Positions 3,321-62,160 of a stretch of DNA of 64,000 nucleotides are shown here, in pieces; positions within the stretch are counted from its first letter, which is position 1, and the number at the start of each line of letters is the position of its first letter. This stretch comes from Tetrapyrgos nigripes. Taxonomy: Eukaryota > Basidiomycota > Agaricomycetes > Agaricales > Campanellaceae. The notes under the pieces are model-generated. The model was given only the letters and a program-made list of their open reading frames with translations. It had not been told where the DNA came from and did no database searches. The position numbers and the translations under genes were made by a program. Location of the stretch: positions 186,001 through 250,000 of the forward strand of contig JAACJM010000094.1 in the NCBI GenBank assembly GCA_013368315.1. The letters run 5' to 3'.

Positions 3321-5870
3321 CGAATCCCGATGTCAGCGCCAAGTTCGTTGGACGACCCGACGACAACCCCGACGACGAGGAAGTTAGGAGGAAGCAAGTT
3401 CCACAACGTCATCTTTGGTCATGTTTGGATCCAAAGCCTTCGGCATACCGACCCGTTGACACAGCGGTCTACCGCTTGGAGACCTCCGATTCGGAGTACG
3501 CGAGTTCCTTTCCAGATACATCCGCCGCCATTTACTTCCGTTTGATTCATAAATCCAATCAACGATCGGATTTCAAATTCGTTCGATTCCCTGCCGTCCA
3601 GACGCTTAGGAGTATGACCGAGAGTGCTGTAGTTTCAGCGGATGCTCTTGGATCATAAGAATCCTCCAAAGCGTCGTCAACAGAGTTTAGACTCTATCTG
3701 CCTGCCTGCCAGCTTCTCACTCGAAATTTTTCGGTGTGTACATCTGCCTGACTGCCTTATTATCTCTTCTGACATTATTACTCAGAAACTTTCGTGGATT
3801 ATACCGGTACTACAAGTACATATTCTGACATCTGCCTATCCATGAAATTTTCTGAGGTAAGACGCCATTTCTCATAGAAGCCATCAATCCATTCAAAGAT
3901 CCTGACTACTATCAGCTATTTTATTTAGCGTCGTCCCAATTCTTCAGCCCTCCCATCCCTCCCTAATTTGGTTCTCAACCTGTCTCCTATATGTGTCTTT
4001 TTCATATCTTTCTTTGGCTCAGTCGAGCAAATACCACTGTTCTGATAATTATATGTCATTCATCTAATGTATCTTATGTTTACGCCGACGACTTTCTAGT
4101 AACTTATTCTTGGACTGTACACAGCATTTGGTACTCTATGTAACCATCTTTCCGCTCCAATTCCACATTCTGTTGGGTGAAATATTCCCGGTTTTGCCTA
4201 TATCGTCCAGTATGAGTCGTACGCAGGGACTTGGAGGGTTGAGTCTTTGACTCTTTGTCCTCGCCTTTTCCAAGCCGTACCCGTATAAACTGAGGTGTTT
4301 ATGGGACGGTTGTATGGGTTTCTTTAACCGTATCGATGAGCTCAGAATTGGCTCAGAAGATTTCTGCATACAGTACGATTGACGGTACGGCTTCCTCGTA
4401 CAGACACCACGGTCGTATGCACTGCAGCGACGCAGTTCAGTACCGACCTTCCGAGCTTTACTTGGGTTTTTCTTGTCTTCCTTACAGGTGATGAAGCGCA
4501 GCTAGAGTTTTGGGTTTTTCTGTCATTTATTTATTGTTTCACCTTTGTTCCTTACTGTGCTCACTGGCAGCGTATAGTCACTTTTAGTGTGTTCTTTCAT
4601 GACTCGTCTCGGATGATATCCGAACGAGTCCGTATAAATACTCTCATTTATGTATCTACAACCCAGGTGTTCTGGCAATACACAACTTATTCCAGTCTGT
4701 CAAGTGCAAATACTCAGCAATCTACCCTTCGAAAACCTTCCTCTTCAAAATTTCCCTCTTGCTGTGACTCGGATTCACCCCAGAGTCCCTCGTCACTGCA
4801 TACACGGTATACCAGTACAAGCAAAGTACAAGCCTGGTGAGTATGGCTTTTGAGTGGCCTGGGCGGGGTTTAACGTAAGTAGTTGAAGCACTGTACTTGA
4901 AGCGGAGCTCGAAGATCTCATATAAGTAAATCTGCTTCAACTCACACCGAGCCAAAAATCACTCTGTGTAGCCATGAAACTTTTTCAGTTCACGGAATTG
5001 ATGGATTTTGGGTGCGCTAGAGATCATGGTAAAGACTCTTGCAATGAAGGGAACTCGCTAATGATATTGCAGATACTTTTTGGCCTCCCGTACAGACAGT
5101 TACAGTCTACAGTCGTAACTGTATACAGTACGGTGAATAGCCATATGTAAAGAGTGAGGACTGCAAGACAACAATCGGGCTCCGAAAATGGATTCGTGCT
5201 TCCATTTTCTCAATCGCCTCCCATTTTCGCAGTTCTCATTGGATTTTCACACTCACTACCGCAAGCCTACCGTCTCTGGCATTCACGCGCATTATCGCTG
5301 TCATCACCGCAGGGCACGACGGTTTGAGTCTCACCAGCACCTTGATGAAGACGTCGTAGGAATTTTTGGTATAGGATGAAACAGGTAAAACTATTCCGCC
5401 GCCTTGCAGTGAGTCCATGGCCAGGAACGCCGTGTGACACTGTTTCCCCACTGTGCGAACCAAAAAACGGCAACCCCGCAGGATGATGGACCGTGCCCGG
5501 CCTCAACCACCGGCTAAGTTGCAATGGTGATCTGTCTTGCATGTGTACAAAAACCCAGTGCCCATTTTTGCTTCATTCTTTCAAAAAAGCGGGAGGGGGT
5601 GCTCAAACTGCCCATTATTTACTTCATTTTTGGTCCCATCTTCGCCAAATCCCAGTCAAATCCAGGAATGAAACCAAGGATGAAGGCAGGAATGGCCCAA
5701 AAAAATGAGGGGTTTACGCTGGCCAATACGTGGTCCAGAATGCGTCATACTATAGTAATGCATCTGTTCAGTAGGGATGAAGCATGACTGAACATTTGGA
5801 CGTATTAATTACGAGGCCCCTTGGGAACTAGTTCTTATCATCTGAGGCTTCCGCGTGTGGCTATGCAATT
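3321..5870. other. Interval without a recognisable gene
   Basis: Several open frames of 60-150 codons overlap on both strands (for example 3425-3658, 4379-4840 and 5267-5542). None shows a known domain or a convincing exon-intron chain. The frame at 3425-3658 has the most protein-like composition but is unidentified. Confidence 0.4.
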
Positions 5871-12841: not shown

Positions 12842-13950
12842 TTTAGAATACTGATCTGGGAGGCATACTAAGTAGTTCAGAGTCATAAATGTAGATACAG
12901 AGTCCTTGTTATCAGCCTGCTGAAATTTTGATCATGAGATCCATGAGAATGATACTGAATATTACTACAGCAGGCAGGTTACTGTCTCAGCATGAATAAG
13001 AGTTCAGTCACACATCACAGCCAAAAGAAGCTAAGGCCAGATTTGACATTTTCTATTTTTTTCAGATTTTTTTGGATTTTTTTTTTGTCAGAAAGACTGA
13101 ACTTTCGTTCATGCCAGGACAGTAGTATATATGTGCAAATACCATTAGTTCCTTCCAACGGACTCTCATACAACATAAAGGCGAGAAACACAGTATCCGC
13201 TAGGTACCCGCATAGGTGCCCGCATGGTACCCGCACGGTGCCCGCATGGGTACCCGCATGTGCACAGCCACTGCGGGTACCATGCGGGTGCATTACCAGC
13301 ATCCACACAACATCTAAATCACTTCTAATGGATTGAAAATAAGGAATGCTGTAGCTCCTGTACTAATAGCCAGTACCTTGACATATTCAATGTGTAGAAA
13401 TGAATTTCTATCATAAATTCTACTAAATCTTAGGCTAAATTCACATTGATCTCGACTTTTCTAGGAATTGGATCTACAAATTGCCTTAGTAAACACTTGA
13501 AACATTAGCTCAGTGATGTATTAGAATGAGTAGACTGCATTTACAATGCGAATTATGAAGAGTTTTATTCATGTGCAGGCTTCATTTCGAGTCTAAGGGT
13601 AATTTTGGTACATAACTCATAGAATATTGGCATGCAAAGAATGAAAATAGTCTCTACTGCATGCAATAGGCTTTTAGCAATAATATCCAGGCTGTTTTGT
13701 GGAGAAATACTTGAGTTATCAATGAGACTCTAATGTGAATGGGAGTAAGTGGCTGTGCTTATCCATGTACATTTGAGTTTCACTACACTTCGTTGAAGTC
13801 CATTTACAAGCTTTATGTACACTTTTACGCCTCTCTACTATGTTACAAATGCTCGTATGTATGTCATACATTGGTGAACTCAAATGATTACTGGTACCCG
13901 GGCCGTACCCGCAGCCCCGCAGGGGGTACCCGCAGATTTACCTATACCGG
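12842..13950. repeat. Right terminal region of the MULE-like transposon
   Basis: Non-coding. 12960-13747 is the inverted counterpart of 1-780, and the last 200 bases complete the terminus. It contains two GCGGGTAC arrays. The open frame at 12992-13336 is only a translation of the terminal repeat. Confidence 0.8.
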
Positions 13951-17070: not shown

Positions 17071-19187
17071 TCAGTCATCATCACTGTCAATTTCAGGGCT
17101 GGCCTGCTTTTGAGAACGAGAACGTGTTCGGCTTGAAGAATGTTCAGTAGTGCTAGCACGCCCCTTGCCTTTACTAACAGTCAACTTTTCCAGACCAATA
17201 CCATGGCAAATGCGGTTGCATTTGTGATTCCTGATAAATTCATCAAGGCCTGTGTAGCCATGATCTCCGGGGCAGCTTCCTCTGCAGAGATAATGATATC
17301 AGACAAATAGAAAGGTAGTCTTGTAGATCAAATACGTACCCATCTCTAGTGTGTGTCATAATATCAAAGAGAACCTGTCCTTGTGCAGTGGGAGATCCTG
17401 TTGTCAATCAACAGAGAATGTTGATCAGAATCCAAATTTTTATATGCAAAAAGCTGTAAATAATACCTTGTATATCAACAAATACCATCTTCCCTTTGGT
17501 CCAGTGAAGAGTGAAATGAGCAAAAGCGGCCATTGTCATGTAGGGAAGCGTGTTGCGGTCAACTTGAGTCATCGTTCCAGAATATTTGGTGATTTCTGTG
17601 CTCCGTCGGGGTTCCATAAGCCAAAGTATTTGAAGGGTTTCCAAATCTTCCGACCCTGGCTCATACATCTCGTCAACATACTGCTCAGCAGTGACACCAG
17701 AGAGAGTAGACGGGGTATTGTTTTCCACAATTTCTTCTGCAAGATATGCATCTGTGAAAGAAAAATCTTTTTAAGTCTGTAAGTAAACCATCATTCAAGT
17801 TTGCATTGGAAGAAATATGAATACCGGAAGAATAATCAACCCCTGACTCTTGACAGATTCTCTGAAACAAGTCCAAAAAGTATTTGCCGCGGTAGATGTT
17901 TCGAAATTCAGACTCTAAAGCCCAAGAATCATTGTGCATACTGTAAGGGGTGGTCATTCTCTTGAACGCAATTTGATCTGACACTTTCATAATACCCTGA
18001 GTTAAAAATCAGTACTGAGAAAATATAAACCATGAATAGACTCGCCTGGAACACTGTTTTCGCCAGGCCAGTACCGATAGGTGTACTGGATGCCACAGCA
18101 GGTACTTCCTCTCCTTCATCAAAGTTGATCTGAATTTCACCCTCCTCCCCTTCCTCAATCTTCGCAATACGGAGTTTCATTGCCACTGATGACAAGTTCA
18201 ACTTGGGGCCATTTTTGGATTGCAGAGTATGAATTTGCTTCTGTCCATACGTAGAAACCAGTGCTTGATTGCGTGAATCAGTAAAAATCAATTTGTACAT
18301 TCTTGATTACAGCTTACCAGCACATTTAGAAGGTGCTTTGATTTCACCATCATCGTCAAGCTGCCTTTTGATGCGTGCAGAACCACCCAAAGCTGGAGGA
18401 AGTGCGCCAAGCCGTGCTTCCACCTTCAGTGATAAATTCAAAATTAGCAGATGACAAAAAAGTAAGTCTGAGGGAAACATACCTTTGATATATCCACAAT
18501 GAGCCAGAAGTGCATGTATTGTCCATTACACTGTCGGGGGCTTGGACTTTTCTTGGATTGATCAGCTAGCGAGACCAGATTCTTGAGAGGAAACCCATTC
18601 ATGGCAACATGGGTGTCATAGACACATCCAACAGTACCATGCTCAGTGTCACCACTGAGCTTGACATTGAATGGCCAACGAATGTTCACCTCATCACTGA
18701 GCATGAAAGTGTCAGAAAAAAAAAAACACATTCTGATTGGAGGCAAAAAAGATATACATACTACTGCAAGCTCCCTGGAGCGGAATTGCACCATTGAACG
18801 TTGGCGCGATCAACAAAAGTCTTTTTAACATCTACTCAGTATGAAGTAAATTAGAACCAAAAGTCTTCGAGAGCTCATGAATAAATACCGGAGACATTAT
18901 CAGCTGCATCAAATGTCAACATATCATTCGGAAAATTGATGAGAACCTTTTCAGGGATGGCAAGGCGACCATAAGCCAAAATGCTTCGTCCACTGCCTGC
19001 TTTAGCATTCCAAAAGGCAGCCATTTCAGTGGAAGGAGATGACGCAGGTGGAAACTTGATCGCATCGAGTTGGGCTTGTCGTTGCTTTGCGGCCTGCATA
19101 GTAGCTGTGAAATTGTTAGACATGTTGTTCGCAGCAATAGAAGATGCAGCACTGTCAGCAGAGCTCTTGGGTTGAGTTTTGGTCACT
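17071..19187 (-). CDS. Alpha-type (MHCK/EF2-kinase-like) atypical protein kinase, transposon cargo
   Basis: Spliced minus-strand gene of about nine exons. The N-terminal half (about 19187-18050) is Ser/Ala-rich and of unknown fold. The C-terminal half is an alpha-kinase domain: DQIAFKR (Lys of the nucleotide pocket), DAYLAEEIVE, KYSGT, AAFAHFTLHWTKGKMVFVDI then QG, LFDIMTHT, GDHGYTGLDEF and HKCNRIC. This order matches the family, with the terminal glycine loop and the zinc-coordinating H-x-C-x3-C. A Ser/Arg-rich tail ends SPEIDSDDD with the stop at 17071-17073. One intron has a GC donor (near 18050). The reading frame runs into the palindrome boundary at 19187 with no ATG, so the first exon or promoter has been displaced by that insertion. 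Expected role: Ser/Thr phosphorylation; substrate unknown. Confidence 0.75.
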
Positions 19188-19239
19188 ATGCTGGTCAAAG
19201 TGCACTTTTATTCAACCCGTAGAAATTCACAATTGACCC

Positions 19240-19415
19240 GTAGAAATTCAAAGGTTGACACCCGGATTATTTCATTCAAAGTCGACACCCGTATTTTATT
19301 CAAAGGTTGATACCCGTATTTATTCAAAGTCGACACCCGTAATTATTCAAAGTCGACACCCGTATTTTATTCAAAGGTTGATACCCGTATTTATTCAAAG
19401 TCGACACCCACATTC
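19240..19415 (+). repeat. Subterminal tandem repeats of the palindromic element, left
   Basis: Alternating units containing AAAGTCGACACCCG and AAAGGTTGATACCCG separated by TATTTATTC-like spacers. The mirror array at 27084-27290 has one extra 28-bp unit. Arrays like this near transposon ends usually bind the transposase. Confidence 0.8.
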
Positions 19416-19418
19416 ATG

Positions 19419-19425
19419 TATATAG
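19419..19425 (+). promoter_or_regulatory. TATA-like box upstream of the left palindrome gene
   Basis: TATATAG about 150 bases upstream of the ATG at 19575, just inside the subterminal repeats. The mirror copy is at 27074-27080. The function is inferred from sequence and spacing. Confidence 0.45.
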
Positions 19426-19574
19426 CTAGCTTAATCTAGTAAGGTAAGCCAAATTTAGTAGTTCTCACCGCGCACTCAACCACTTCTATACACGCTTCTA
19501 CCAGTCATGTGACCATAGGAAGTCACGAGTCACGTTGCAGCGTTGTTCGTTTACTGATACTCTCATCTTCAACC

Positions 19575-22151
19575 ATGCCTGAACAGCGAGAAGGCACTTG
19601 TATGGCACTACAAATCCGATCTGCCATTCAGGATAAAAATCTTGGACCTATTCTTGGTATCCATGCGGACCCAACTGCCTCTGAGCGCAAGAAAGCTCCT
19701 GGCGGCTCCTGTTCTGCTGTCAAGCTTGGTCTGGTAACGCGATTGGGTCCACATTGTCGCTACAAACGTGGAACCAATGGTGCACAGACCCCTTTGTGGC
19801 CCGAGGTGTTCCGTGTTACGCATAGAAACCCTGTTCCACCGCCTATCTCTACACTCTCACTGCGAGGCCCAGAGGCAATCAGTGCAACTGCACGTGGTAT
19901 AGACATGGAGTTGGGACCTTTAAATCTCTATGTATGTGTTTTCCTTCTGCTTTACTTCCATACTAATGTATGATTACCAAATAGTTGGCATTTCTTACAC
20001 ATACCAACGTACAGCTTTATACCTGGAAGCAATTCTTGCAATCTATTGCGAAGCTCCCAGTCAAGGTGAGTTATCATATAATTGAACACTGCTGGTCAAC
20101 TCCAAAACAATCTAATTCTATCATTAGGTCCGCCGATTCAGTATCGGGCTTGCATTTGAATTCCAGGACTACTTCTTGGCTTTTGTCATGCTTGACAATG
20201 TATTTCAGGTATGTTGCTAAATTTCACATTCCTTTGCTAGCATATTCACTTGCAGCAGCCTAACTGGTATTTACCAAGTGGCCCTATTCCTTTTGAGCTC
20301 TCCATCCCAGATCCAGTCCATACGTGGCTCACTTTTCTCGACCAAGTTACTCAAGCCATAATGGCACGAGTGAACTCTCCATCTTGTCAAAGAGATCAAG
20401 TCTTGGCCATTCAGGTTGTGCGTGACATGAAGATCTTCCATGGAATTGGGATTTATGTTGGTCTTGAGATGTTTGCGATGGCTGGTACGCTACATCTTCA
20501 TATTTGACAGCTGGTCTCCTCTTTTAATCAGACATTACAGGAATTTCACCCTTTCTCACTGAGGCTGAGGTTTTTGACTGTCCATCGCGTACAGCTTGTC
20601 TCTGCCTTGCATATTGGGAATTTGTTAATATGTCTTATTCTCCAGAGCTTTGGTAAGTCTCTCAGCACCATTACTTATCAATCCTCTCACTGTCATACCT
20701 GAATTACAGGGAGAAACTTCTACGACCTGCCATTCACGGAGGTGTGCTGGCTCCTACAGTCAAGCAGAGGAAGAAGTACGCCGATTGGCTAGTGGTATAT
20801 GGGAAGGACCGCATTAAGTGTACCTTTCGGGAGGCTTCCCTGATCGATAAGTACATTGTAAATTCTTCCAACAAATTGATGCTTTCAGTATCTGACTATG
20901 TCTTTCTTCATTCACCAGCACATCATTAATTCAATCCACCAAGATGGGAATCATGGAATTTTCCATGTACAAACTGGACATGAGGCTTCTCTTTTTGATG
21001 TCTTTGAGCCCGCTCGCATTCGAAAGTCACTCAAGCCAGACTCGCAGCCTGACCTTGGTCATCTTGTGTTTGGTAATCGCATGTGGGTTCAGCTAGGCAG
21101 GTCTGTTCCCAGCATTTTGGACCCCTTAACACACATGTTTCAATCTCGTGGTAAGTGTTTTTGACATTCATCACTAACTGTATTCACTGAAGCCTGGTTA
21201 TAGGTCTGGGTGATGGAGCACCTACTTATTTGTTGGAAGAGGTTTATACCTCTCTGTTTGATGATTCTCGTGCCTTCTTTCGGCCTACATACTCCTATCA
21301 TGACCGCCATCAGATTTGGACCATGACTCCAGTCTTTCCACCAAATTCCTTTCCAACCTCAGAGGTGGCATTGTATGTTGTTCATAGCCATTACCATTGC
21401 ACACTGACATAAACTATATTGCCAGGAACTGGGAGAATGAGTACTCAATGACCCTTCAAGAGGTACTCACAAAGCAAGCCAAATAAAATTCTCGATCTAC
21501 ATCAGATCAGCGTCACTGCTTATCTTCAGAATTGGGGGACAAACAGGAAAGAAAAGTGCTTGTTCCGTACGTGTTGCAATTTTCACCATTGACGTCACTG
21601 TGTTTGCTGATCATATATGATGCTCAGCTGCTGGCCACCTTACTCCTCACGCTTTCGCATAGTCGAAGCTCACGAACGTGAATCCAAGCTTTTCAAGAAT
21701 ATAGTAAGCAAGAACACCACAGATGTAGCCATTGGACCACTTGAGTATTGTGGGAATGGGCGAATGGTAAAGGATAGTCATGGAAAACTTATGTGAGTCA
21801 ATTTTGACTTTTCCTGTCAATATTTTCCTGACTAGTTTCTACAGTCTCACTGTGTGCTGGTATGATCCTGAAAGCCTTTCAAAGGGGCTGGTCAGTCGAG
21901 AATACCGAGGATTATCTAGGCGTGTCCTTGGCTTGGACAAAATTGGTAAGAAGGGTTTCAAGATGAAGAAATCAATCAAAACCAAGAATGAGTCAGTCAT
22001 TCAAGGTATTCTGTCTGTTTCATATCCCATCGATGTTGTTTCTCCTTCGATCACCAGCCCTCCCTCCAAGAGACGGCGACTTAGTGCAGACAAGCACCTT
22101 GCTTTGCACTCTGTAGATGATGACAAGCCCAGTCGTCAGCGCAAACAGTGA
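19575..22151 (+). CDS. Unidentified 657-residue protein of the palindromic element, left copy
   Basis: A twelve-exon model with GT-AG introns of about 47-64 bases gives exons 19575-19931, 19985-20065, 20128-20208, 20256-20484, 20541-20652, 20710-20857, 20919-21150, 21204-21372, 21426-21462, 21511-21566, 21628-21792 and 21845-22151. They sum to 1974 bases, an exact multiple of three with one stop. The start ATG has a favourable context. The protein begins MPEQREGTCMALQIR. It has a conserved-looking middle (VHTWLTFLDQVTQAIMARV, DMKIFHGIGIYVGLEM, IHQDGNHGIFHVQTG, HLVFGNRMWVQLG) and a basic C-terminus (KKGFKMKKSIKTKNES, KRRRL). I recognise no family. As the only gene of the element it is a candidate mobility protein. 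Intact frame and splice sites suggest it is young or under selection. Confidence 0.65.
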
Positions 22152-23220
22152 AATAGGCAGGGAATGTGATCTTATACATAAATATTTCGACTATGTAATG
22201 TTATTCTTTTGCAATTTTGTTGGTCAGTCTGGACAGGATAGGTTAAGCTAGCAGGACTCCAGGAGTGACACTATTGACCTAACTGACCGAATGGCCTGTG
22301 ATTATTCCACCTGAAAGGGGTAAAACCTAAGGAAGAATCAGAAGAAATGGAAAAAAATAAGACTTACTGCCAAGCCTCATGTACCACTAAGCTCTGTGAA
22401 GAACATCATGCCTGGGCCTGGTTGCAGACCTTAGAATGTGGGATCTGTAGAGTGAAAGAAGAAAGGAGATAGATAGGCTGGATTGCATCCAGATACATCA
22501 TAGAGCTCCCACACAGCTGTGGCTCACTATGAACAAGACTGTGGCCTAGTTTCATTCTGGTGTACCACTAAGCTCAAAAAAAGTGATAAATATCAAATAA
22601 AGCATCATATGAAAATGATAATAATCAGGGTTTGACTGCCTGTTGAGGAATGAAAAAAGAATGAGACATACAAAGGTGCAATACAGGCTGTAAAAATGGT
22701 TCCCATGATCAGTGCAGACTGTGGTCTAATTTCATTCTGGTGTACCACTAAGCTCAAAAAAAGTGATAAATATCAAATAAACCATCATATGAAAATAATA
22801 ATAATCAGAGTTTGACTGCCTGTCGAGGAATGAAAAAGAACGAGACATACAAAGGTACAATACAGGCTGTAAAGGTAGTTCCCACGAACTCGTTTTTGTG
22901 TTCATATGTTTTCTTTCTCTAATAACATATGTTGCACTCTATATGGTGTGTTACTGATAATGAGTTCTGGTATCATTGATTCTGATATGGCATGGATTTG
23001 ATGACTTGGAGGCCTCATCGGCAGATCCACTTGAAGCACTAGATATCAAGTCTATTATAGCATCTCTTCAGGGAATTATTTTTTGCACAATCTCTACATA
23101 TTAGGCTTAAGTATAGACCTAAAAGCTAACGAATTTACTGACAGTAACATCCTTTCCAGAAGCTATAAATGTCTGGAGATCATGGAATGAGACACATCTG
23201 ACAAGAATGACATCATAGCC
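22152..23220. other. Inner non-coding part of the left palindrome arm
   Basis: Contains a tandem duplication of about 180 bp at 22541-22890. Two short open pieces lie nearer the centre (23000-23087, encoding DDLEASSADPLEALDIKS, and 23146-23217, encoding SFPEAINVWRSW). They look coding-like but have no start or known relatives. Confidence 0.5.
22541..22890 (+). repeat. Tandem duplication, period about 180 bp
   Basis: Units starting GTGGCCTAGTTTCATTCTGG (22541) and GTGGTCTAATTTCATTCTGG (22721) run in parallel with about 5-10 differences. The mirror copy is at 23609-23958. Confidence 0.85.
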
Positions 23221-23278
23221 TTCCTCTGCCTTATCGTTGTCGTTCGTACTAATGGACGTGTTCTGCTGACGTGGTCTC
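23221..23278. other. Unique 58-bp spacer at the centre of the palindrome
   Basis: The bases between 23220 and 23279 do not pair across the axis at 23249.5. This single-copy loop is the only part of the interior that distinguishes the two arms. Confidence 0.9.
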
Positions 23279-24347
23279 GGCTATGATGTCATTCTTGTCA
23301 GATGTGTCTCATTCCATGATCTCCAGACATTTATAGCTTCTGGAAAGGATGTTACTGTCAGTAAATTCGTTAGCTTTTAGGTCTATACTTAAGCCTAATA
23401 TGTAGAGATTGTGCAAAAAATAATTCCCTGAAGAGATGCTATAATAGACTTGATATCTAGTGCTTCAAGTGGATCTGCCGATGAGGCCTCCAAGTCATCA
23501 AATCCATGCCATATCAGAATCAATGATACCAGAACTCATTATCAGTAACACACCATATAGAGTGCAACATATGTTATTAGAGAAAGAAAACATATGAACA
23601 CAAAAACGAGTTCGTGGGAACTACCTTTACAGCCTGTATTGTACCTTTGTATGTCTCGTTCTTTTTCATTCCTCGACAGGCAGTCAAACTCTGATTATTA
23701 TTATTTTCATATGATGGTTTATTTGATATTTATCACTTTTTTTGAGCTTAGTGGTACACCAGAATGAAATTAGACCACAGTCTGCACTGATCATGGGAAC
23801 CATTTTTACAGCCTGTATTGCACCTTTGTATGTCTCATTCTTTTTTCATTCCTCAACAGGCAGTCAAACCCTGATTATTATCATTTTCATATGATGCTTT
23901 ATTTGATATTTATCACTTTTTTTGAGCTTAGTGGTACACCAGAATGAAACTAGGCCACAGTCTTGTTCATAGTGAGCCACAGCTGTGTGGGAGCTCTATG
24001 ATGTATCTGGATGCAATCCAGCCTATCTATCTCCTTTCTTCTTTCACTCTACAGATCCCACATTCTAAGGTCTGCAACCAGGCCCAGGCATGATGTTCTT
24101 CACAGAGCTTAGTGGTACATGAGGCTTGGCAGTAAGTCTTATTTTTTTCCATTTCTTCTGATTCTTCCTTAGGTTTTACCCCTTTCAGGTGGAATAATCA
24201 CAGGCCATTCGGTCAGTTAGGTCAATAGTGTCACTCCTGGAGTCCTGCTAGCTTAACCTATCCTGTCCAGACTGACCAACAAAATTGCAAAAGAATAACA
24301 TTACATAGTCGAAATATTTATGTATAAGATCACATTCCCTGCCTATT

Positions 24348-26924
24348 TCACTGTTTGCGCTGACGACTGGGCTTGTCATCATCTACAGAGTGCAAAGCAA
24401 GGTGCTTGTCTGCACTAAGTCGCCGTCTCTTGGAGGGAGGGCTGGTGATCGAAGGAGAAACAACATCGATGGGATATGAAACAGACAGAATACCTTGAAT
24501 GACTGACTCATTCTTGGTTTTGATTGATTTCTTCATCTTGAAACCCTTCTTACCAATTTTGTCCAAGCCAAGGACACGCCTAGATAATCCTCGGTATTCT
24601 CGACTGACCAGCCCCTTTGAAAGGCTTTCAGGATCATACCAGCACACAGTGAGACTGTAGAAACTAGTCAGGAAAATATTGACAGGAAAAGTCAAAATTG
24701 ACTCACATAAGTTTTCCATGACTATCCTTTACCATTCGCCCATTCCCACAATACTCAAGTGGTCCAATGGCTACATCTGTGGTGTTCTTGCTTACTATAT
24801 TCTTGAAAAGCTTGGATTCACGTTCGTGAGCTTCGACTATGCGAAAGCGTGAGGAGTAAGGTGGCCAGCAGCTGAGCATCATATATGATCAGCAAACACA
24901 GTGACGTCAATGGTGAAAATTGCAACACGTACGGAACAAGCACTTTTCTTTCCTGTTTGTCCCCCAATTCTGAAGATAAGCAGTGACGCTGATCTGATGT
25001 AGATCGAGAATTTTATTTGGCTTGCTTTGTGAGTACCTCTTGAAGGGTCATTGAGTACTCATTCTCCCAGTTCCTGGCAATATAGTTTATGTCAGTGTGC
25101 AATGGTAATGGCTATGAACAACATACAATGCCACCTCTGAGGTTGGAAAGGAATTTGGTGGAAAGACTGGAGTCATGGTCCAAATCTGATGGCGGTCATG
25201 ATAGGAGTATGTAGGCCGAAAGAAGGCACGAGAATCATCAAACAGAGAGGTATAAACCTCTTCCAACAAATAAGTAGGTGCTCCATCACCCAGACCTATA
25301 ACCAGGCTTCAGTGAATACAGTTAGTGATGAATGTCAAAAACACTTACCACGAGATTGAAACATGTGTGTTAAGGGGTCCAAAATGCTGGGAACAGACCT
25401 GCCTAGCTGAACCCACATGCGATTACCAAACACAAGATGACCAAGGTCAGGCTGCGAGTCTGGCTTGAGTGACTTTCGAATGCGAGCGGGCTCAAAGACA
25501 TCAAAAAGAGAAGCCTCATGTCCAGTTTGTACATGGAAAATTCCATGATTCCCATCTTGGTGGATTGAATTAATGATGTGCTGGTGAATGAAGAAAGACA
25601 TAGTCAGATACTGAAAGCATCAATTTGTTGGAAGAATTTACAATGTACTTATCGATCAGGGAAGCCTCCCGAAAGGTACACTTAATGCGGTCCTTCCCAT
25701 ATACCACTAGCCAATCGGCGTACTTCTTCCTCTGCTTGACTGTAGGAGCCAGCACACCTCCGTGAATGGCAGGTCGTAGAAGTTTCTCCCTGTAATTCAG
25801 GTATGACAGTGAGAGGATTGATAAGTAATGGTGCTGAGAGACTTACCAAAGCTCTGGAGAATAAGACATATTAACAAATTCCCAATATGCAAGGCAGAGA
25901 CAAGCTGTACGCGATGGACAGTCAAAAACCTCAGCCTCAGTGAGAAAGGGTGAAATTCCTGTAATGTCTGATTAAAAGAGGAGACCAGCTGTCAAATATG
26001 AAGATGTAGCGTACCAGCCATCGCAAACATCTCAAGACCAACATAAATCCCAATTCCATGGAAGATCTTCATGTCACGCACAACCTGAATGGCCAAGACT
26101 TGATCTCTTTGACAAGATGGAGAGTTCACTCGTGCCATTATGGCTTGAGTAACTTGGTCGAGAAAAGTGAGCCACGTATGGACTGGATCTGGGATGGAGA
26201 GCTCAAAAGGAATAGGGCCACTTGGTAAATACCAGTTAGGCTGCTGCAAGTGAATATGCTAGCAAAGGAATGTGAAATTTAGCAACATACCTGAAATACA
26301 TTGTCAAGCATGACAAAAGCCAAGAAGTAGTCCTGGAATTCAAATGCAAGCCCGATACTGAATCGGCGGACCTAATGATAGAATTAGATTGTTTTGGAGT
26401 TGACCAGCAGTGTTCAATTATATGATAACTCACCTTGACTGGGAGCTTCGCAATAGATTGCAAGAATTGCTTCCAGGTATAAAGCTGTACGTTGGTATGT
26501 GTAAGAAATGCCAACTATTTGGTAATCATACATTAGTATGGAAGTAAAGCAGAAGGAAAACACATACATAGAGATTTAAAGGTCCCAACTCCATGTCTAT
26601 ACCACGTGCAGTTGCACTGATTGCCTCTGGGCCTCGCAGTGAGAGTGTAGAGATAGGCGGTGGAACAGGGTTTCTATGCGTAACACGGAACACCTCGGGC
26701 CACAAAGGGGTCTGTGCACCATTGGTTCCACGTTTGTAGCGACAATGTGGACCCAATCGCGTTACCAGACCAAGCTTGACAGCAGAACAGGAGCCGCCAG
26801 GAGCTTTCTTGCGCTCAGAGGCAGTTGGGTCCGCATGGATACCAAGAATAGGTCCAAGATTTTTATCCTGAATGGCAGATCGGATTTGTAGTGCCATACA
26901 AGTGCCTTCTCGCTGTTCAGGCAT
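24348..26924 (-). CDS. Unidentified 657-residue protein of the palindromic element, right copy
   Basis: Exact mirror of the gene at 19575-22151: the same twelve exons, same introns and same protein, with the ATG at 26924 and the stop at 24350-24348. The two copies converge on the central spacer, so read-through transcription would yield RNAs that can form a long double strand. I cannot tell whether one or both are expressed. The family is unrecognised. Confidence 0.6.
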
Positions 26925-27073
26925 GGTTGAAGATGAGAGTATCAGTAAACGAACAACGCTGCAACGTGACTCGTGACTTCCTATGGTCACATGACTGGTA
27001 GAAGCGTGTATAGAAGTGGTTGAGTGCGCGGTGAGAACTACTAAATTTGGCTTACCTTACTAGATTAAGCTAG

Positions 27074-27080
27074 CTATATA
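27074..27080 (-). promoter_or_regulatory. TATA-like box upstream of the right palindrome gene
   Basis: Mirror of the TATATAG at 19419-19425, about 150 bases from the ATG at 26924. Confidence 0.45.
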
Positions 27081-27340
27081 CATGAATGTGGGTGTCGACT
27101 TTGAATAAATACGGGTATCAACCTTTGAATAAAATACGGGTGTCGACTTTGAATAATTACGGGTGTCGACTTTGAATAAATACGGGTATCAACCTTTGAA
27201 TAAAATACGGGTGTCGACTTTGAATGAAATAATCCGGGTGTCAACCTTTGAATGAAATAATCCGGGTGTCAACCTTTGAATTTCTACGGGTCAATTGTGA
27301 ATTTCTACGGGTTGAATAAAAGTGCACTTTGACCAGCATA

Positions 27341-28698
27341 GCACCCTACTTACAAAGTTTGCTATTCCGACTACTAGACGTAATGCAAAGCAAACTTCCG
27401 ATGGCCTCAAGACATTTTTGGTAGTTGATAAGCTTGAAGGTGATCCGTATCATCGACTAGGCCCAGTCTCAGTTCAGTCATTGCTCCGTCTTGACATGAT
27501 GCCATTACCAAGGTACTATGCTCTAGGATGACATGCTATTAGTATGGTACTGATAGTGATTGCATGCATTTCAGAGATACAGTCCGTCGTATTCAAAAGG
27601 AGAATGAGGATCCTGCATATCGCCTCCTCAGGGCTCCATCCGGACAGAAGCTTCGAATTCCACGTAAGCCATTACTGGTATTAGGTCCCTATCAGCAGAT
27701 CCATAGCGATGGCCATGAAAAGCTTGCGGCCTCTGGACTGGATATGGGTGGGGTCGGGATTCCCATTTACGGCTTTCGGCAACATATTGGTCACATTTCT
27801 TTGCTTGTAGCTGTGCCTGATGCACGCCACGCTGATGTTATCGGTCATCTACACCTTGATCTAATAGAAGAATGTGGTTATAGTGCGTATCATGCTGGTA
27901 AATCAGTAATTCAAATGAATACTAATGTCGTAAAAACATACATAGATATTCCGGTCCAGATCACAGTTGATAAAGGTTCTGAGACTGGGGAGATGTACGC
28001 ACAACAAGTGGCGCTACGGTGAGCCTTTTAACTATTGATTAGTGATTTAATAAAACTTGGATTTTGCAGTGAGCTCTTCAGTCCTGAACTCTTTCAGGAT
28101 AAAGAAGAGTGGCCCGCTTTCCGTGCTGTTCCAAGTACTAGGAATATTGTTGCAGAATCTATGTGGTATTGGCTTCAACGTTTCGAGGGCAAGGATCTCC
28201 GAGACATCCTTCGGGAAGGGAAATTCAATGGCTATTTTCACACACACAGACAGGACCATGTGTAAGTACTTACTTATTGTCAAGTGCTCCAGTTGAGTCT
28301 GACATTGCCGATAAAGTGATCTTTTTCATTGGATTTTTTCGAAAATTGTTCAGGGATGCTTGGATGATTTCCGGAATTACTGGAATTCTCACCGTATCAG
28401 AAAACAACCCAATTCATCCTACCCATCTGGAACAACTCCAAATCAACTCATGCGCTGTCCAGAACAATACGGTCTGAGAGATTGCAGAATACCGGTACAT
28501 CATAAATCTGTTGATGCATTGCGGAAGCGGCTGCCTCCACGAGATGAGCTCATGCGTTGGGTTGATGCAGATTTTGATAGAAAGGCTTGGAGGGCATACC
28601 AAGAAATTGGAAGTCCTAGCTTATCTGCTGGAATGAGGTCGGCCATTCAGGGCTGGGAGATCTTCAGACAGATGTCCGTCAAGCTGCAGACATTTTGA
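27341..28698 (+). CDS. DDE integrase-type transposase, 5' end displaced by the palindrome
   Basis: Three exons are clear: 27341-27512, 27575-28018 and 28070-28259, followed by 28354-28698 after an intron whose donor is GTGTAAGT at 28260. The retroviral-integrase-like core has QQIHSDGHEKL (first Asp), GGVGIPIYGF, PVQITVDKGSETG (second Asp) and STRNIVAESMWYWLQ (Glu). The tail has FRNYWNSHRIRKQPN and AMRSAIQGWEIFRQM-like sequence. This is the integrase-core family that is widespread and usually unnamed in agaricomycete genomes. It would cut and join the TIRs of the 16.3-29.2 kb transposon. The frame begins at the palindrome boundary without ATG, so the N-terminal exon is missing or lies elsewhere. 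The catalytic triad appears present. Confidence 0.75.
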
Positions 28699-35655: not shown

Positions 35656-37568
35656 ATCATGCAATCTTTCTTCTCAACCACCATGTCCTCCACATCCCAG
35701 TACCCATCGTCCCATCGTCACCATCCAACCTACCTTTACCACCGTCATCAACGAAGTATACAATGGTGTCATCCCCAATCTCCCCCTCAAACTTGGCACG
35801 CTCTTCTCACGCAAAAGGTAGTGTAGTGTTGGATGAAGAGGATAGGGAGAGGGTTGTTTTTGATACGAAGGATGGAGAAGATCTCAAAATGGCATTACTG
35901 GTGGAAGGAACGCCAACAAACACCTACACCGTCTCCCTCCCCTCGCTCTACATCCCCCCAACGCGTCTCCTTACCCCCTTCCAAGAATACGCAGACCCCG
36001 AACGCTCCAATCCACGTCGTCCGCATAGTATAACCGCGTTTGCTGTCGCTCCAGATAAATCTCAGTTGACGACAAGGTATCTTGATGGCACGCTGGACAT
36101 CCTTTACCTTCCCAAGCGTCCATGTCGATGAAAAAGTCCGCTATGGCAGAAACATACGCTCCCCCAAGAGCGACGTATACGACTCATCGACAGACGCTTG
36201 TTTCTGCGCTATGTCTACGCCCACCACTACCGTATCCACGACGACGAAAGCCCACAAATCTACCATCACCTCTCTTCGATTGTTTCCTTCTTCCCGCATT
36301 GTTCTTTCTTCAAGTGCAGACATTTCCTTACAATTTTACCCTGCCGATCCACTGTCTCTCTCCTCCTCTACCTTACCACCAGAGAATCAATCCCCTTGGT
36401 TTGTACTCTCCCGCTTCCCTCGTCCTCAAGTCCACACACGAGGCCTTCGTCGATTTCGGCTACTGTGATACTCGGGCGAGGATATACTATTTTATCAGCT
36501 AGTAATAGCTCGGACGGGGCTATAAGGACGTGGGACATAGCCAAAGGTATAGAGGTAGAAGAGTCAGTGGGGAGAACGAGAGGAGGGGATGGGGGTGGGG
36601 GTGTGAATAAGGTGGTGTTTGTTGAAGACGGCGATGGGGTAGACGCTGGGGGCCATGGGGCAGTGAATGGGACTGGGCATGGGACTGGAGGGGAAGGTGT
36701 CAGTGGAAGTGGAACTATACCCGCAGGAGACGGAGACGAGGAGTGAAAGGAAAACTGTTTTGTGCGTTACAAAATGGGTCGTTTGAAGTGTTCCAGATCT
36801 CTTCTCTTCCTCCCCTTCCGTATACAACGACTACGGCAACAGCAAGACCCAAATCCCTCTTCAAATCCACCCGTTCTCCACACGGAGCGTAGCTGTCTCT
36901 CCCATTCAAGCTGTTTCGTCGTCGTCTTCTTCCTTCAAGAAATTCCGATTACTTGCTGCGGGTACCTCGGGCGGGATTATTACCATCTACGCTATTGCCT
37001 TCTTCCTTATCTTCCTCAGCTTTACCTCCTTCGAGTTCAAGTGCCGACACTCAGCTAATAACGAGCTACTAGAGCTATCCAAAGCCCTCTCATCCCCTCT
37101 TGTCAAATTCCGCCGTTCGGATGCGGGGGCTGAAGATCTCGCATTCACTTCTTTACTTTCCTTACCTTCCTTGTCTGATGGGGGTCAGGGATTGGGCTTT
37201 GTAGCAGCGAGAACCGACGGGTTACCTTGGATTCAATGGATTGCAAAGCTAGATCCGAGTCTTCGTGTTTCGCATGCTGCTTTTGGATCTACCGGATCCA
37301 TCGAGGAATCTCAGGCTGGTCCAAACGTTGGCGTTGGCGTATCAGCAACATATCTGGGGACGGAGGACTCGAGGAAAAAGTCAAAGTCGAGGTGGGGGTA
37401 TATGTGGAATTGATAGGTGGGGATGTTGATCCTGTACGAGGTATCTCTGTCGTTCATAGGGATAGCGGTAGAGGAGGGCAAGGAGAAGGAGGGGCAAGGG
37501 AAGGAGGGACAAGGACAGAAGTGTGGACAGCGGGTGATGACGGGGTTGTTAGGAGGTATTTGTTATAA
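35652..37568 (+). pseudogene. WD40-repeat gene (PAAF1/Rpn14-like), frameshifted copy
   Basis: Starts MDHAIFLLNHHVLHIP and carries the family's N-terminal part (HSITAFAVAPDKSQL, LDGTLDILYLP). The frame then shifts repeatedly: AHKSTITSLRLFPSSRIVLS near 36250, GRGYTILSASNSSDGAIRTW near 36470, GKLFC then LQDGS-equivalent sequence near 36750, and GDDGVVRRYLL at 37568. The pieces align in order with the continuous frame at 62087-60831. PAAF1/Rpn14 proteins are beta-propeller chaperones of the proteasome regulatory ATPases; the assignment rests on the HKSTxTSLxFFPSSR...ILSASxDGxIRTWD pattern. At least four frameshifts mark it as a pseudogene. It has the N-terminal third that the other copy lacks. 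Confidence 0.7.
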
Positions 37569-44385: not shown

Positions 44386-44921
44386 TGTCAAGGTTGTCAA
44401 TACACTCAATAACCACCCAAGTCACACAATATGAGAAGACAAGTTACAAGTGAATAGATTGAGAGAGAGAAAGAAATAGAAAGAGAGAGAGAGAGAGATA
44501 TGGAGTAGTAAGCAGACTAGGCTCTACACTGCGTAGTAATAGTACGGAGCGGAGACGAAGTGAACGAACTAAGGAGTAGGTTACAAAGATAGCGGGTATA
44601 TAAGTAATATGTGAACAGATGGGAAGAAGTAGGTAATAATAAATGGTACCATGTGGAGATGTCAAGGATGAGAGAATAGTAAGTTAAATATGGATAGATG
44701 AAGGTACTGGATCATAAAGAATGATTGACAGTGGGAACGTCCGTGGAGATAGAAAGCGGAGGAGATAAGTATGTGAGTCATAGATCTGGGAAGATGGTAA
44801 CTCTAGACGATGATGGGAAACGGTTGATGTTTATGGGGTTAAAAGTAAATAGAGTGGGAAATGAGTGGTAAAAAGGAAAAGAATAGAAATGAAATGAATA
44901 GGTGGGGTGCGATTCATGACA
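44386..44921 (-). repeat. 3' LTR of the chromovirus
   Basis: 536 bases, TGTCA...TGACA ends. Contains a GA-dinucleotide run at 44458-44500 (complement strand CT) shorter than in the other LTR. Confidence 0.95.
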
Positions 44922-51733: not shown

Positions 51734-52275
51734 TGTCAAGGTTGTCGATACACTCAATAACCACCTAAGTCACACAATACGAGAAGACAAGTTACAAGTG
51801 AATAGATTGAGAGAGAGAAAGAAATAGAAAGAGAGAGAGAGAGAGAGAGAGAGATGGAGTAGTAAGCAGACTAGGCTCTACACTGCGTAGTAATAGTACG
51901 GAGCGGAGACGAAGTGAACGAACTAAGGAGTAGGTTACAAAGATAGCGGGTATATAAGTAATATGTGAACAGATGGGAAGAAGTAGGTAATAATAAACGG
52001 TACCATGTGGAGATGTCAAGGATGAGAGAATAGTAAGTTAAATATGGATAGATGAAGGTACTGGATCATAAAGAATGATTGACAGTGGGAACGTCCGTGG
52101 AGATAGAAAGCAGAGGAGATAAGTATGTGAGTCATAGATCTGGGAAGATGGTAACTCTAGACGATGATGGGAAACGATTGATGTTTATGGGGTTAAAAGT
52201 AAATAGAGTGGGAAATGAGTGGTAAAAAGGAAAAGAATAGAAATGAAATGAATAGGCGGGGTGCGATTCGTGACA
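51734..52275 (-). repeat. 5' LTR of the chromovirus
   Basis: 542 bases, TGTCA...TGACA. It differs from the other LTR at about eight positions, all transitions, six of them at CpG, plus a longer GA run. Confidence 0.95.
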
Positions 52276-60830: not shown

Positions 60831-62160
60831 TCAGAGTAAATACCTCCTAACAACCCCATCATCACCCGCTGTCCACACTTCCGTTCCGTCTCCTTCAAGT
60901 TCACCTTCACCGAGTCGGCTGTGACCTACAACAGCAACACCCCGTACAGGATCAACATCTCCACCTGTCAACTCCGCATATATCCCAACCTCTACTCCTA
61001 TCTCTACCTTTACCTCTTCTATTTCGGTTCCTGCTGAAAATGAACCTGATTGGGATGTTAGCGATAATGGCGATAGTTTTAGTTTAGCGATCCAAGGTAA
61101 CCCGTCCGTCGTCGCTACTACCAAGCCCAATCCCTGAGTCCCATCAGACGAGGAAGGTAAAGAAGTGAATGCGAGATCCTCAATCCCCGCATCCGAACGA
61201 CGAAATTTGACGAGAGGGGTTGAGAGGGAGAGGGATTGGGATAGAGCTTCGGCTTCGGCTTCGATTTCCGGCTGTACATGTGAGGAGGGTGATATCGAGG
61301 AAGACGAGGAAGGCGGAATAGCAATCGCGTATACAGTAATAACACCTCCTGAAGTACCGGTAGCAAGTAATTGGAATTTTTTGAAGAAAGAAGACGATAA
61401 CAAAATGGCTTGAATGGAAGAGACAGCTACAGCCGTCAACGCTCCATGTGGAGAACGTGTGGATTTGAAGAGGGATTTGGGTCTTGACGAAGACGAGGGA
61501 GAAGAGATTTGAAAAACCTCAAAAGACCCATCTTGTAACGTACAAAACAGTTTTCCTTTCACTTCCTGAGCCTGAGCCTGTCCTCCGTCTCGGTCTCCTG
61601 CAGGTATAGTTCCACTTGCACCTTGACCTTCACCTCCAGCCCCAGTCCCATTCACCGCCCAATGGCCGCCAGCCTCTGCCCTGTCGTCATCTTCCACAAA
61701 CACTATCTTATTCACTCCTCCTCCTCCTCCCCCAGTCCTCCCCACCGACTCCTCCACCTCTATACCTTTGGATACGTCCCATGTCCTTATAGCCCCGTCC
61801 GAGCTATTACTAGCTGATAAAATAGTGCGTCCTCGCCCGAGTATCGCAGTAGCCGAAATCGGCGATGGCCTTGTGTGTGGACTTGAGGACGAAGGAAGAG
61901 GGAGGAGGGTACGGACGGAGGGGATACGAGTGGAATGGTTCTCTGGGGGTAGGGTCGAGGAGGAGGGAGATAGTGGGTCGGCAGGGTAAATTTGTAAGGA
62001 AAAATCCGCACTTGAGGAGAGGATAACGCGGGAAGAAGGAAAGAAGCGAAGGGAGGTGACGGTAGATTTGTGAGCTTTCGTCGACATGGACGTGGTAGCG
62101 GTAGACGTAGACGTAACTACAGAAACAAGCGTCTGTCGATGAGTCGGACCAGGTAGTACT
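60831..62160 (-). CDS. WD40-repeat protein (PAAF1/Rpn14-like), 5'-truncated copy with open frame
   Basis: A continuous 418-codon frame from ATG 62087 (MSTKAHKSTVTSLRFFPSSR) to a stop at 60831. It contains WD-type blades: ILSSSADFSLQIY, GRGRTILSASNSSDGAIRTW, GKLFCTLQDGSFEVFQI, LATGTSGGVITVYAI and TEVWTAGDDGVVRRYLL. Long Ser- and Gly-rich inserts separate them. Homology to the pseudogene at 35652-37568 starts at about 62160; the 500 bases encoding the N-terminus in that copy are absent here. The frame is intact although the gene is headless, so it may be expressed from a new start or be a recent truncation. The two copies lie in opposite orientation 25 kb apart. The expected role of the family is proteasome assembly. 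Confidence 0.65.

Follow-up and report, generated by a model that had tools for sequence, protein, structure and literature searches.

A palindromic, double-left-ended derivative of a probable IS3EU-type DNA transposon in the genome of Tetrapyrgos nigripes

Structure and gene content of the palindrome

The window (the whole stretch of 64,000 nucleotides analysed here, positions 186,001 to 250,000 of contig JAACJM010000094.1 in assembly GCA_013368315.1 of Tetrapyrgos nigripes) was found to possess a near-perfect palindrome at 19187–27340, exactly where the original prediction had placed it. It consists of a left arm of 4,034 bp (19187–23220, plus strand), a spacer of 58 bp (23221–23278) and a right arm of 4,062 bp (23279–27340, minus strand), and its boundaries were set by the end motif TATGCTG..CAGCATA and by comparison with the paralogous loci C41 and C170. 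The left arm comprises an L end with subterminal tandem repeats (19187–19409, plus strand; TRF arrays common to sibling L ends), a gene and a 3' block (22888–23220, plus strand; arm positions 3703–4035), and has no R end. In sibling elements this 3' block adjoins the R end, and its identity is 99.4–99.7% in C46, C249 and C265. The right arm is an inverted second copy of the same L end, gene and 3' block. As had been predicted, the sole difference between the arms is one 28-bp unit (27254–27281, minus strand), a perfect second copy of a tandem repeat unit in the right arm, and with this unit removed the arms are letter-for-letter identical. This identity is not attributable to chance, as the arms show no mismatches in 4,034 bp compared with 27 in 3,558 aligned bp between an arm and its nearest sibling, C249.

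Each arm carries a complete gene of 12 exons with 11 GT-AG introns, encoding a protein of 663 aa (19575–22151, plus strand), the mirror copy (24348–26924, minus strand) being its exact reverse complement. The intact 12-exon mirror genes proposed from the sequence were thus confirmed. They fall into no known family, as searches of Pfam, PDB sequences and NCBIfam gave no match to the protein. No convincing match to it was found in a 9.5-kb relative or in the examined part of C144. The ratios of synonymous to non-synonymous changes between sibling copies and the window gene were 3:19 (C249), 9:22 (C46) and 10:25 (C265), which, set against 458:1531 sites, give no sign of purifying selection on the gene.

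The transposon family

Siblings in the same genome have a single gene between two different short ends (L-gene-R), and among 22 elements paired by hand, 20 were of the L-R type and two of the L-L type. The window element and its siblings share the TATGCTG..CAGCATA termini, which are of the TA..TA type. A 6-bp target duplication was perfect in 10 of the 22 paired elements, with five of six letters present in one further element, compared with three of six at the window element. The original prediction of transposon termini holds for the transposon-bounded nature of the element and its subterminal tandem repeats. It does not hold for the TA on either side as a target duplication, the TA being the element's own terminal dinucleotide and the duplications of the family being of 6 bp. 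At C249 another L end was found 7 bp from the element's own L end, so that head-to-head neighbouring insertion does occur in this family.

A second L-L palindrome, C343, was also identified. Its break points are unlike those of the window element, its arms have diverged by 5 mismatches and it has five of the six letters of the duplication. Where the element is inserted, its joined flanks are 6 bases longer than the homologous C118 sequence, which is the excess expected of a 6-bp duplication. With five matching letters, C343 cannot be the product of two adjacent insertions, and so at least one other route to such a structure exists.

The window element had been likened to a long-TIR element with a gene in its arms. 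Two convergent intact genes do lie in the arms; the siblings, however, are L-gene-R, and the L-L dimer in the window arose by rearrangement. An origin as a native foldback-type transposon, with the arms as its normal terminal repeats, would fit arms that extend to intact termini on both sides, but it deserves almost no credence: the ends of the canonical siblings examined are alike over only ~180 bp, and the break points of C343 are different. An element with arm-long terminal repeats is ruled out by these one-gene siblings with their short, different ends.

The 9.5-kb relative carries an integrase-core gene, with a match to PF24764, and encodes an integrase-type transposase. An 11-kb region (C179:125272-136518) was considered as an autonomous element and rejected, as it appears to be a sibling with an internal deletion and nested insertions. 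The IS3EU superfamily is characterized, in the portions of the literature drawn on here, by TA..TA termini and 6-bp target duplications (PMC10045372, PMC12730594). The present family resembles it in both features and in the integrase-core gene of the 9.5-kb relative. The window element differs in that it is a dimer produced by rearrangement, has an L end on each side, lacks the duplication and encodes no recognisable transposase domain, its 663-aa protein having no Pfam match that would mark it as an IS3-like DDE transposase. It is best described as a double-left-ended derivative of a gene-carrying, probably non-autonomous, IS3EU-type DNA transposon.

Flanks and target site

The junctions between L end and flank are exact on both sides of the window element. 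The left flank (18872–19186) matches the paralogous locus C41 with 97.1% identity over 315 bp (positions 1–315 of L035, reversed), and the right flank (27341–27640) matches C41 with 98.3% identity over 301 bp (27340–27640), beyond a 1,034-bp interval that is absent here. The distance between the two flanks is 1,034 bp in C41 and 1,100 bp in C170, with order and orientation kept. Since the flanks are separated at both loci and the window element has no 6-bp duplication, it follows that target DNA was lost at the window locus. The missing 1,034-bp segment was found only in C41, in C170 and, weakly, in C345. The proposed empty site GTCAC-TA-GCACC was not recovered; the joined flanks could be aligned to the paralogous loci solely in two distinct pieces. 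Among the 66 ends, no R end was flanked by 6 bp that perfectly match those at one of the junctions of the window element.

The central junction

The centre of the palindrome is an asymmetric join, with an offset of 24 bp and a filler of 34 bp. The filler (23221–23254) is absent in six aligned siblings, and sibling alignment identifies the adjacent 24 bp (23255–23278, minus strand) as canonical sequence present at the inner end of the right arm only. Along the element, just 24 bp separate the inner break points of the two arms. The 34 foreign bp rule out that the centre is a native hairpin loop. The filler is unique in the assembly (a single match at ≤3 mismatches), and no exact match of at least 10 bases turned up when the window was searched for its template.

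The filler also bears a weak resemblance to a PacBio adapter (its score of 29 is attained by 2.7% of shuffled sequences and by 1.2% of 34-mers from the genome). This would suit an assembly artefact in which a chimeric or fold-back read has taken the place of the true centre of two inverted elements, or of two haplotypes with one element each. Misjoins at the 9.5-kb repeats are indeed probable, including one on the window's own contig, because five 9.5-kb relatives have one L flank in common with a matching R flank only at C434, and contigs C399 and C446 start with the partners expected for C502 and C179. However, a simple fold-back should repeat the outer flank in mirror image, and here the flanks differ and follow the order seen in C41 and C170. 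The restricted occurrence of the lost segment, the 28-bp difference between the arms and the diverged arms of C343 also speak against an artefact, which is considered quite improbable.

Origin of the double-left-ended structure

The palindrome looks like the result of an accident in transposition and DNA repair rather than a new kind of element. The explanation preferred here, and thought probable by a modest measure, is an end-joining accident between two copies of one IS3EU-type element, with the L ends outward and the inner ends joined with filler. In its favour are the L-gene-R siblings and the 20 L-R elements among the 22 paired by hand, the rarity of a duplication as poor as that in the window, the asymmetric join with its unique filler, the spacing of the flanks in C41 and C170, the identity of the arms and the head-to-head insertion at C249. 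By the most likely route, an IS3EU-type transposase provided in trans would have inserted a daughter copy, inverted, at a distance of ~1 kb from the parent. The R ends of both copies and the target between them would then have been deleted, presumably in that order of events and perhaps through a cut across a hairpin stem, which would explain inner break points only 24 bp apart. End joining of the inner ends would have left the 34-bp filler; neither R end is still there, nor is the 1,034-bp stretch of target between them. Unless both arms were cut at the same level, this spacing of the break points has to be a coincidence. The C343 palindrome, which implies at least one other route, and the lack of an R end with a matching flank both weigh against this explanation.

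A less probable but serious possibility is that the L-L dimer arose at another site, for instance when two sister copies with breaks at the same position fused, and later transposed as one piece by means of its two L ends. Two ends attacking target positions 1,034 bp apart would make no duplication, and the intervening DNA would be lost. One step would then account for both the identical arms and the near-symmetric break points, and C343 shows an L-L element with most of a duplication and a 6-base flank excess. This explanation, however, requires like-end movement plus an aberrant insertion, the filler occurs at a single place in the assembly, and C343 could be an in-place conversion of an L-R insertion. 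Abortive gap repair in place, with broken ends copied inward from template L ends after excision and then end-joined, would also fit the filler and the identical arms. It explains neither how an L terminus came to be joined exactly to target DNA at a distance of 1,034 bp nor why two copying stops lie only 24 bp apart, and comparison of the flanks with C41 and C170 largely argues against it, making it very unlikely.

Silencing potential and comparison with known systems

The suggestion that convergent copies could give hairpin RNA is borne out as a potential, the mirror genes lying in an inverted duplication. Transcription across the centre would be the source of such RNA. The folding of the central 358 nt and the Piwi-domain matches speak only to the feasibility of hairpin or small-RNA silencing, and silencing by the window palindrome is plausible on this analysis. 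It is a rather doubtful proposition that palindromic L-L dimers are a recurrent alternative form of this family, with an end-joining origin, movement on like ends and long hairpin RNA from the convergent full-length genes, so that a fungal transposon family would give rise time and again to a silencer of its own of the Mu killer type.

Foldback and long-TIR elements (Galileo, FB and long-TIR MULEs) have very long inverted repeats that reach the termini. The window element shares this feature, but its arms are not the normal termini of its family, the siblings having short and unlike ends. Double Ds and other products of aberrant transposition contain inverted neighbouring copies of one transposon with rearranged junctions; the window element, in contrast, has lost both inner ends and has an end-joined centre with filler instead.

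The structure also resembles Mu killer (Muk) of maize, described in the sections of the two reports used here as an inverted-duplicated derivative of MuDR that silences its parent (PMC3440606, PMC2563033). According to the same sections, the two termini of Muk both derive from one end of the parent, that on the side of the gene, just as the window element carries an L end on either side and lacks an R end, and Muk likewise is an inverted duplication with two convergent gene copies able to give long hairpin RNA. Muk differs in that it has partial copies of a Mutator transposase gene and that its silencing has been shown (PMC3440606, PMC2563033), whereas a whole gene is present in each arm here. 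The two also belong to different superfamilies. Two independent structural equivalents of Mu killer exist in the T. nigripes genome. The centre of Muk resisted amplification in the 2012 study, by the part of that report drawn on (PMC3440606), whereas the centre of the window element is readable, as are the ends that it lacks and a locus that closely approximates the site before insertion, which makes testable both the route of origin and the idea that accidents of this kind set off transposon silencing in fungi.

Structure and gene content of the palindrome

The window was found to carry an L-L element (19187-27340) of a transposon family with two different short ends, L and R. The stretch from the L end to the 3' block is present twice and the R end is absent. 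The original prediction of a left arm (19187-23220), a spacer (23221-23278) and a right arm (23279-27340) was confirmed in full, as was the claimed identity of the arms apart from one 28-bp unit, with 4,034 bp being identical once 27254-27281, a perfect tandem duplicate of the adjoining unit, is removed. The 12-exon gene said to be intact in both arms was also recovered, at 19575-22151 on the plus strand and, as its mirror copy, at 26924-24348 on the minus strand, with GT-AG introns and an open frame of 663 aa. This protein had no match in Pfam, PDB sequences or NCBIfam.

Other repeats in the window include direct repeats of about 540 bp (44386-44921 and 51734-52275; 97% identical, 7.3 kb apart), which may be retrotransposon long terminal repeats, and inverted repeats of about 0.8 kb (18-765 and 12963-13729; 84% identity) and about 1.1 kb (36180-37232 and 61090-62146; 78% identity).

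Sibling elements

The source assembly (98.5 Mb, 587 contigs, designated C) was searched for siblings with the first 514 bases of the arm, giving 46 matches from 40 scored of 76 candidates, and 20 regions were taken for closer comparison. The canonical copy has the order L end, single gene, 3' block (arm positions 3703-4035) and R end, the two ends being roughly 70-78% alike over 140-190 bp. A full-length gene is also present in C46, C249 and C265, with frameshifts or stops in all three, and among the four elements compared at full length the gene is open throughout only in that of the window. Internal deletions mark the copies in C156 and C74. There was no indication of purifying selection when gene copies were compared with the window gene. 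Differences from the latter number 22/1,992 in coding sequence against 2/585 in introns for C249, and 31/1,896 against 5/585 for C46; the per-site excess in coding sequence (C249, C46 and C265) is odd for plainly decaying copies. At C249 (extracted region L010, 7764-7948) a 180-bp L end is found 7 bp from the L end of the canonical element and head to head with it, which indicates that copies do land beside one another.

Termini, target duplications and probable transposase source

The terminal pattern TATGCTGNYCNNRGTGCACTTTTATT had 65 matches in the assembly and its reversed control had 0, L ends being TATGCTGGTC and R ends TATGCTGTCC. A shorter pattern which shows the flanks identified 66 ends (39 + 27; reversed controls 0). 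Facing neighbour ends on one contig were paired by hand into 22 elements, the remaining ends being left unpaired; 20 are L-R, while the window element and C343 are L-L. Ten of the 22 have a perfect 6-bp target duplication; agreement is partial at C343 (5/6 letters) and in the window (3/6). Six of the 10 L-R pairs lacking a perfect duplication are 9.5-kb relatives with repeated flanks, the other four being at C46, C153, C281 and C179:125272-136518. Facing ends 33.6 kb apart at C272:35826 and 69476, excluded from the 22, have flanks agreeing at 6/6 letters and would delimit an element that is very large or else has taken in many nested insertions. Excerpts of two reports (PMC10045372, PMC12730594) give TA..TA termini and, as a rule, 6-bp duplications as hallmarks of the IS3EU superfamily, the proposed placement of this family.

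The 9.5-kb relative has nine copies by end pairing (e.g., C91:299014-308579; L028, L030), and its ends align with the L end of the arm at about 75%. It encodes a helix-turn-helix (HTH) and integrase-core protein (PF24764), along with further putative genes without a Pfam match, and probably represents a sister family in its autonomous form. PF24764 has at least 168 matches in the assembly, in all nine copies and many other places. No such match occurs in the single-gene element, suggesting that it is probably mobilized in trans. On C144 an element with a window-type L end has a relative of the PF24764 integrase gene some 6 to 8 kb in from that end; no R end for the element was found within the stretch of C144 examined.

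The centre and the lost target segment

In alignment with six siblings, the left arm keeps to the canonical sequence up to ..CATCATAGCC and the right arm for 24 bp beyond that limit, with 34 bp of non-canonical sequence between them. The only match to this filler in the assembly (≤3 mismatches) is the window itself. A native hairpin loop was set aside given the filler and the 24-bp asymmetry; the centre has the look of end joining.

The joined window flanks match as two blocks in each of the paralogous loci C41 (98%) and C170 (89-92%), and weakly in C345, the blocks being separated by 1,034 bp in C41 and 1,100 bp in C170. This interval aligns nearly end to end between C41 and C170 (91-93%, with gaps). 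Relative to C41 the window has therefore lost 1,034 bp, exactly between its two L termini, and the lost segment matches only C41, C170 and, weakly, C345 in the assembly. With both L termini exact, their target positions separated by 1,034 bp and no 6-bp duplication, simple insertion of the element and gap repair in place are both disfavoured.

A second L-L palindrome and the question of assembly

A 3.2-kb L-L palindrome of the same family was identified at C343:36564-39777 (L012, 3065-6278), within a Gypsy-like reverse transcriptase gene (read from translation). Its arms extend to arm positions 1517 and 1800 and show 1,405 identities and 5 mismatches, plus gaps, among them the part by which the longer arm overhangs; filler is absent from the junction, where an overlap of at most 5 bases is seen. 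Its flanks are contiguous and can be aligned across the insertion point with homologues, C118 among them; when joined, they are 6 bases longer than C118 at that point, as expected from a 6-bp duplication. As the break points differ from those of the window palindrome, L-L palindromes arose at least twice.

The L flank GGGTCAGAGCC is common to five 9.5-kb relatives (C91:308579, C179:151021, C398:44145, C502:14253 and C434:28025), with the matching R flank only at C434; the expected partner flanks of C502 and C179 sit at the very start of C399 and C446. Such mismatches suggest that long repeats have probably been misjoined in places in this assembly, once close to the end of the window's contig. 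An artefact is nevertheless unlikely for the window palindrome: its flank order is kept in two paralogues (C41, C170), its outer flanks are not mirrored, its filler is unique in the assembly and its arms differ by the 28-bp unit, while the C343 palindrome has diverged arms. The likeness of the filler to a PacBio adapter is weak, as 2.7% of shuffles and 1.2% of genomic 34-mers score at least as high.

Origin of the palindrome

The identical arms and near-symmetric join point to both arms deriving from copies of one recent parent. We lean towards an origin in which two neighbouring, outward-facing copies would have lost their inner parts and the remainders been joined, for which C249 provides a precedent of adjacent insertion. 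Two points count against this origin: C343 must have arisen in some other way, and break points as close as 24 bp are accounted for only if a hairpin cut is assumed. A dimer made elsewhere and then aberrantly inserted is ranked below deletion between neighbours and appears rather unlikely.

Predicted hairpin RNA and comparison with Mu killer

Transcription through the centre would yield a hairpin of up to 4 kb, and the central 358 nt have a predicted fold of -282.8 kcal/mol (shuffle mean -78.7, n = 100). Argonaute-like genes seem to be present in the genome, judging from 21 Piwi-domain matches on 10 contigs. No description of an L-L palindromic IS3EU element was found in titles or abstract openings of the open-licence literature on IS3EU (duplications, fungi, Agaricomycetes), fungal foldback elements, gap repair filler, double Ds and basidiomycete transposon hairpin RNA. 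In maize Mu killer, according to excerpts of PMC3440606 and PMC2563033, both termini derive from MuDR's gene-side end, and the centre resisted amplification. The anatomy of the window element is that of Mu killer as so described, and a silencing role may be proposed for it by analogy.
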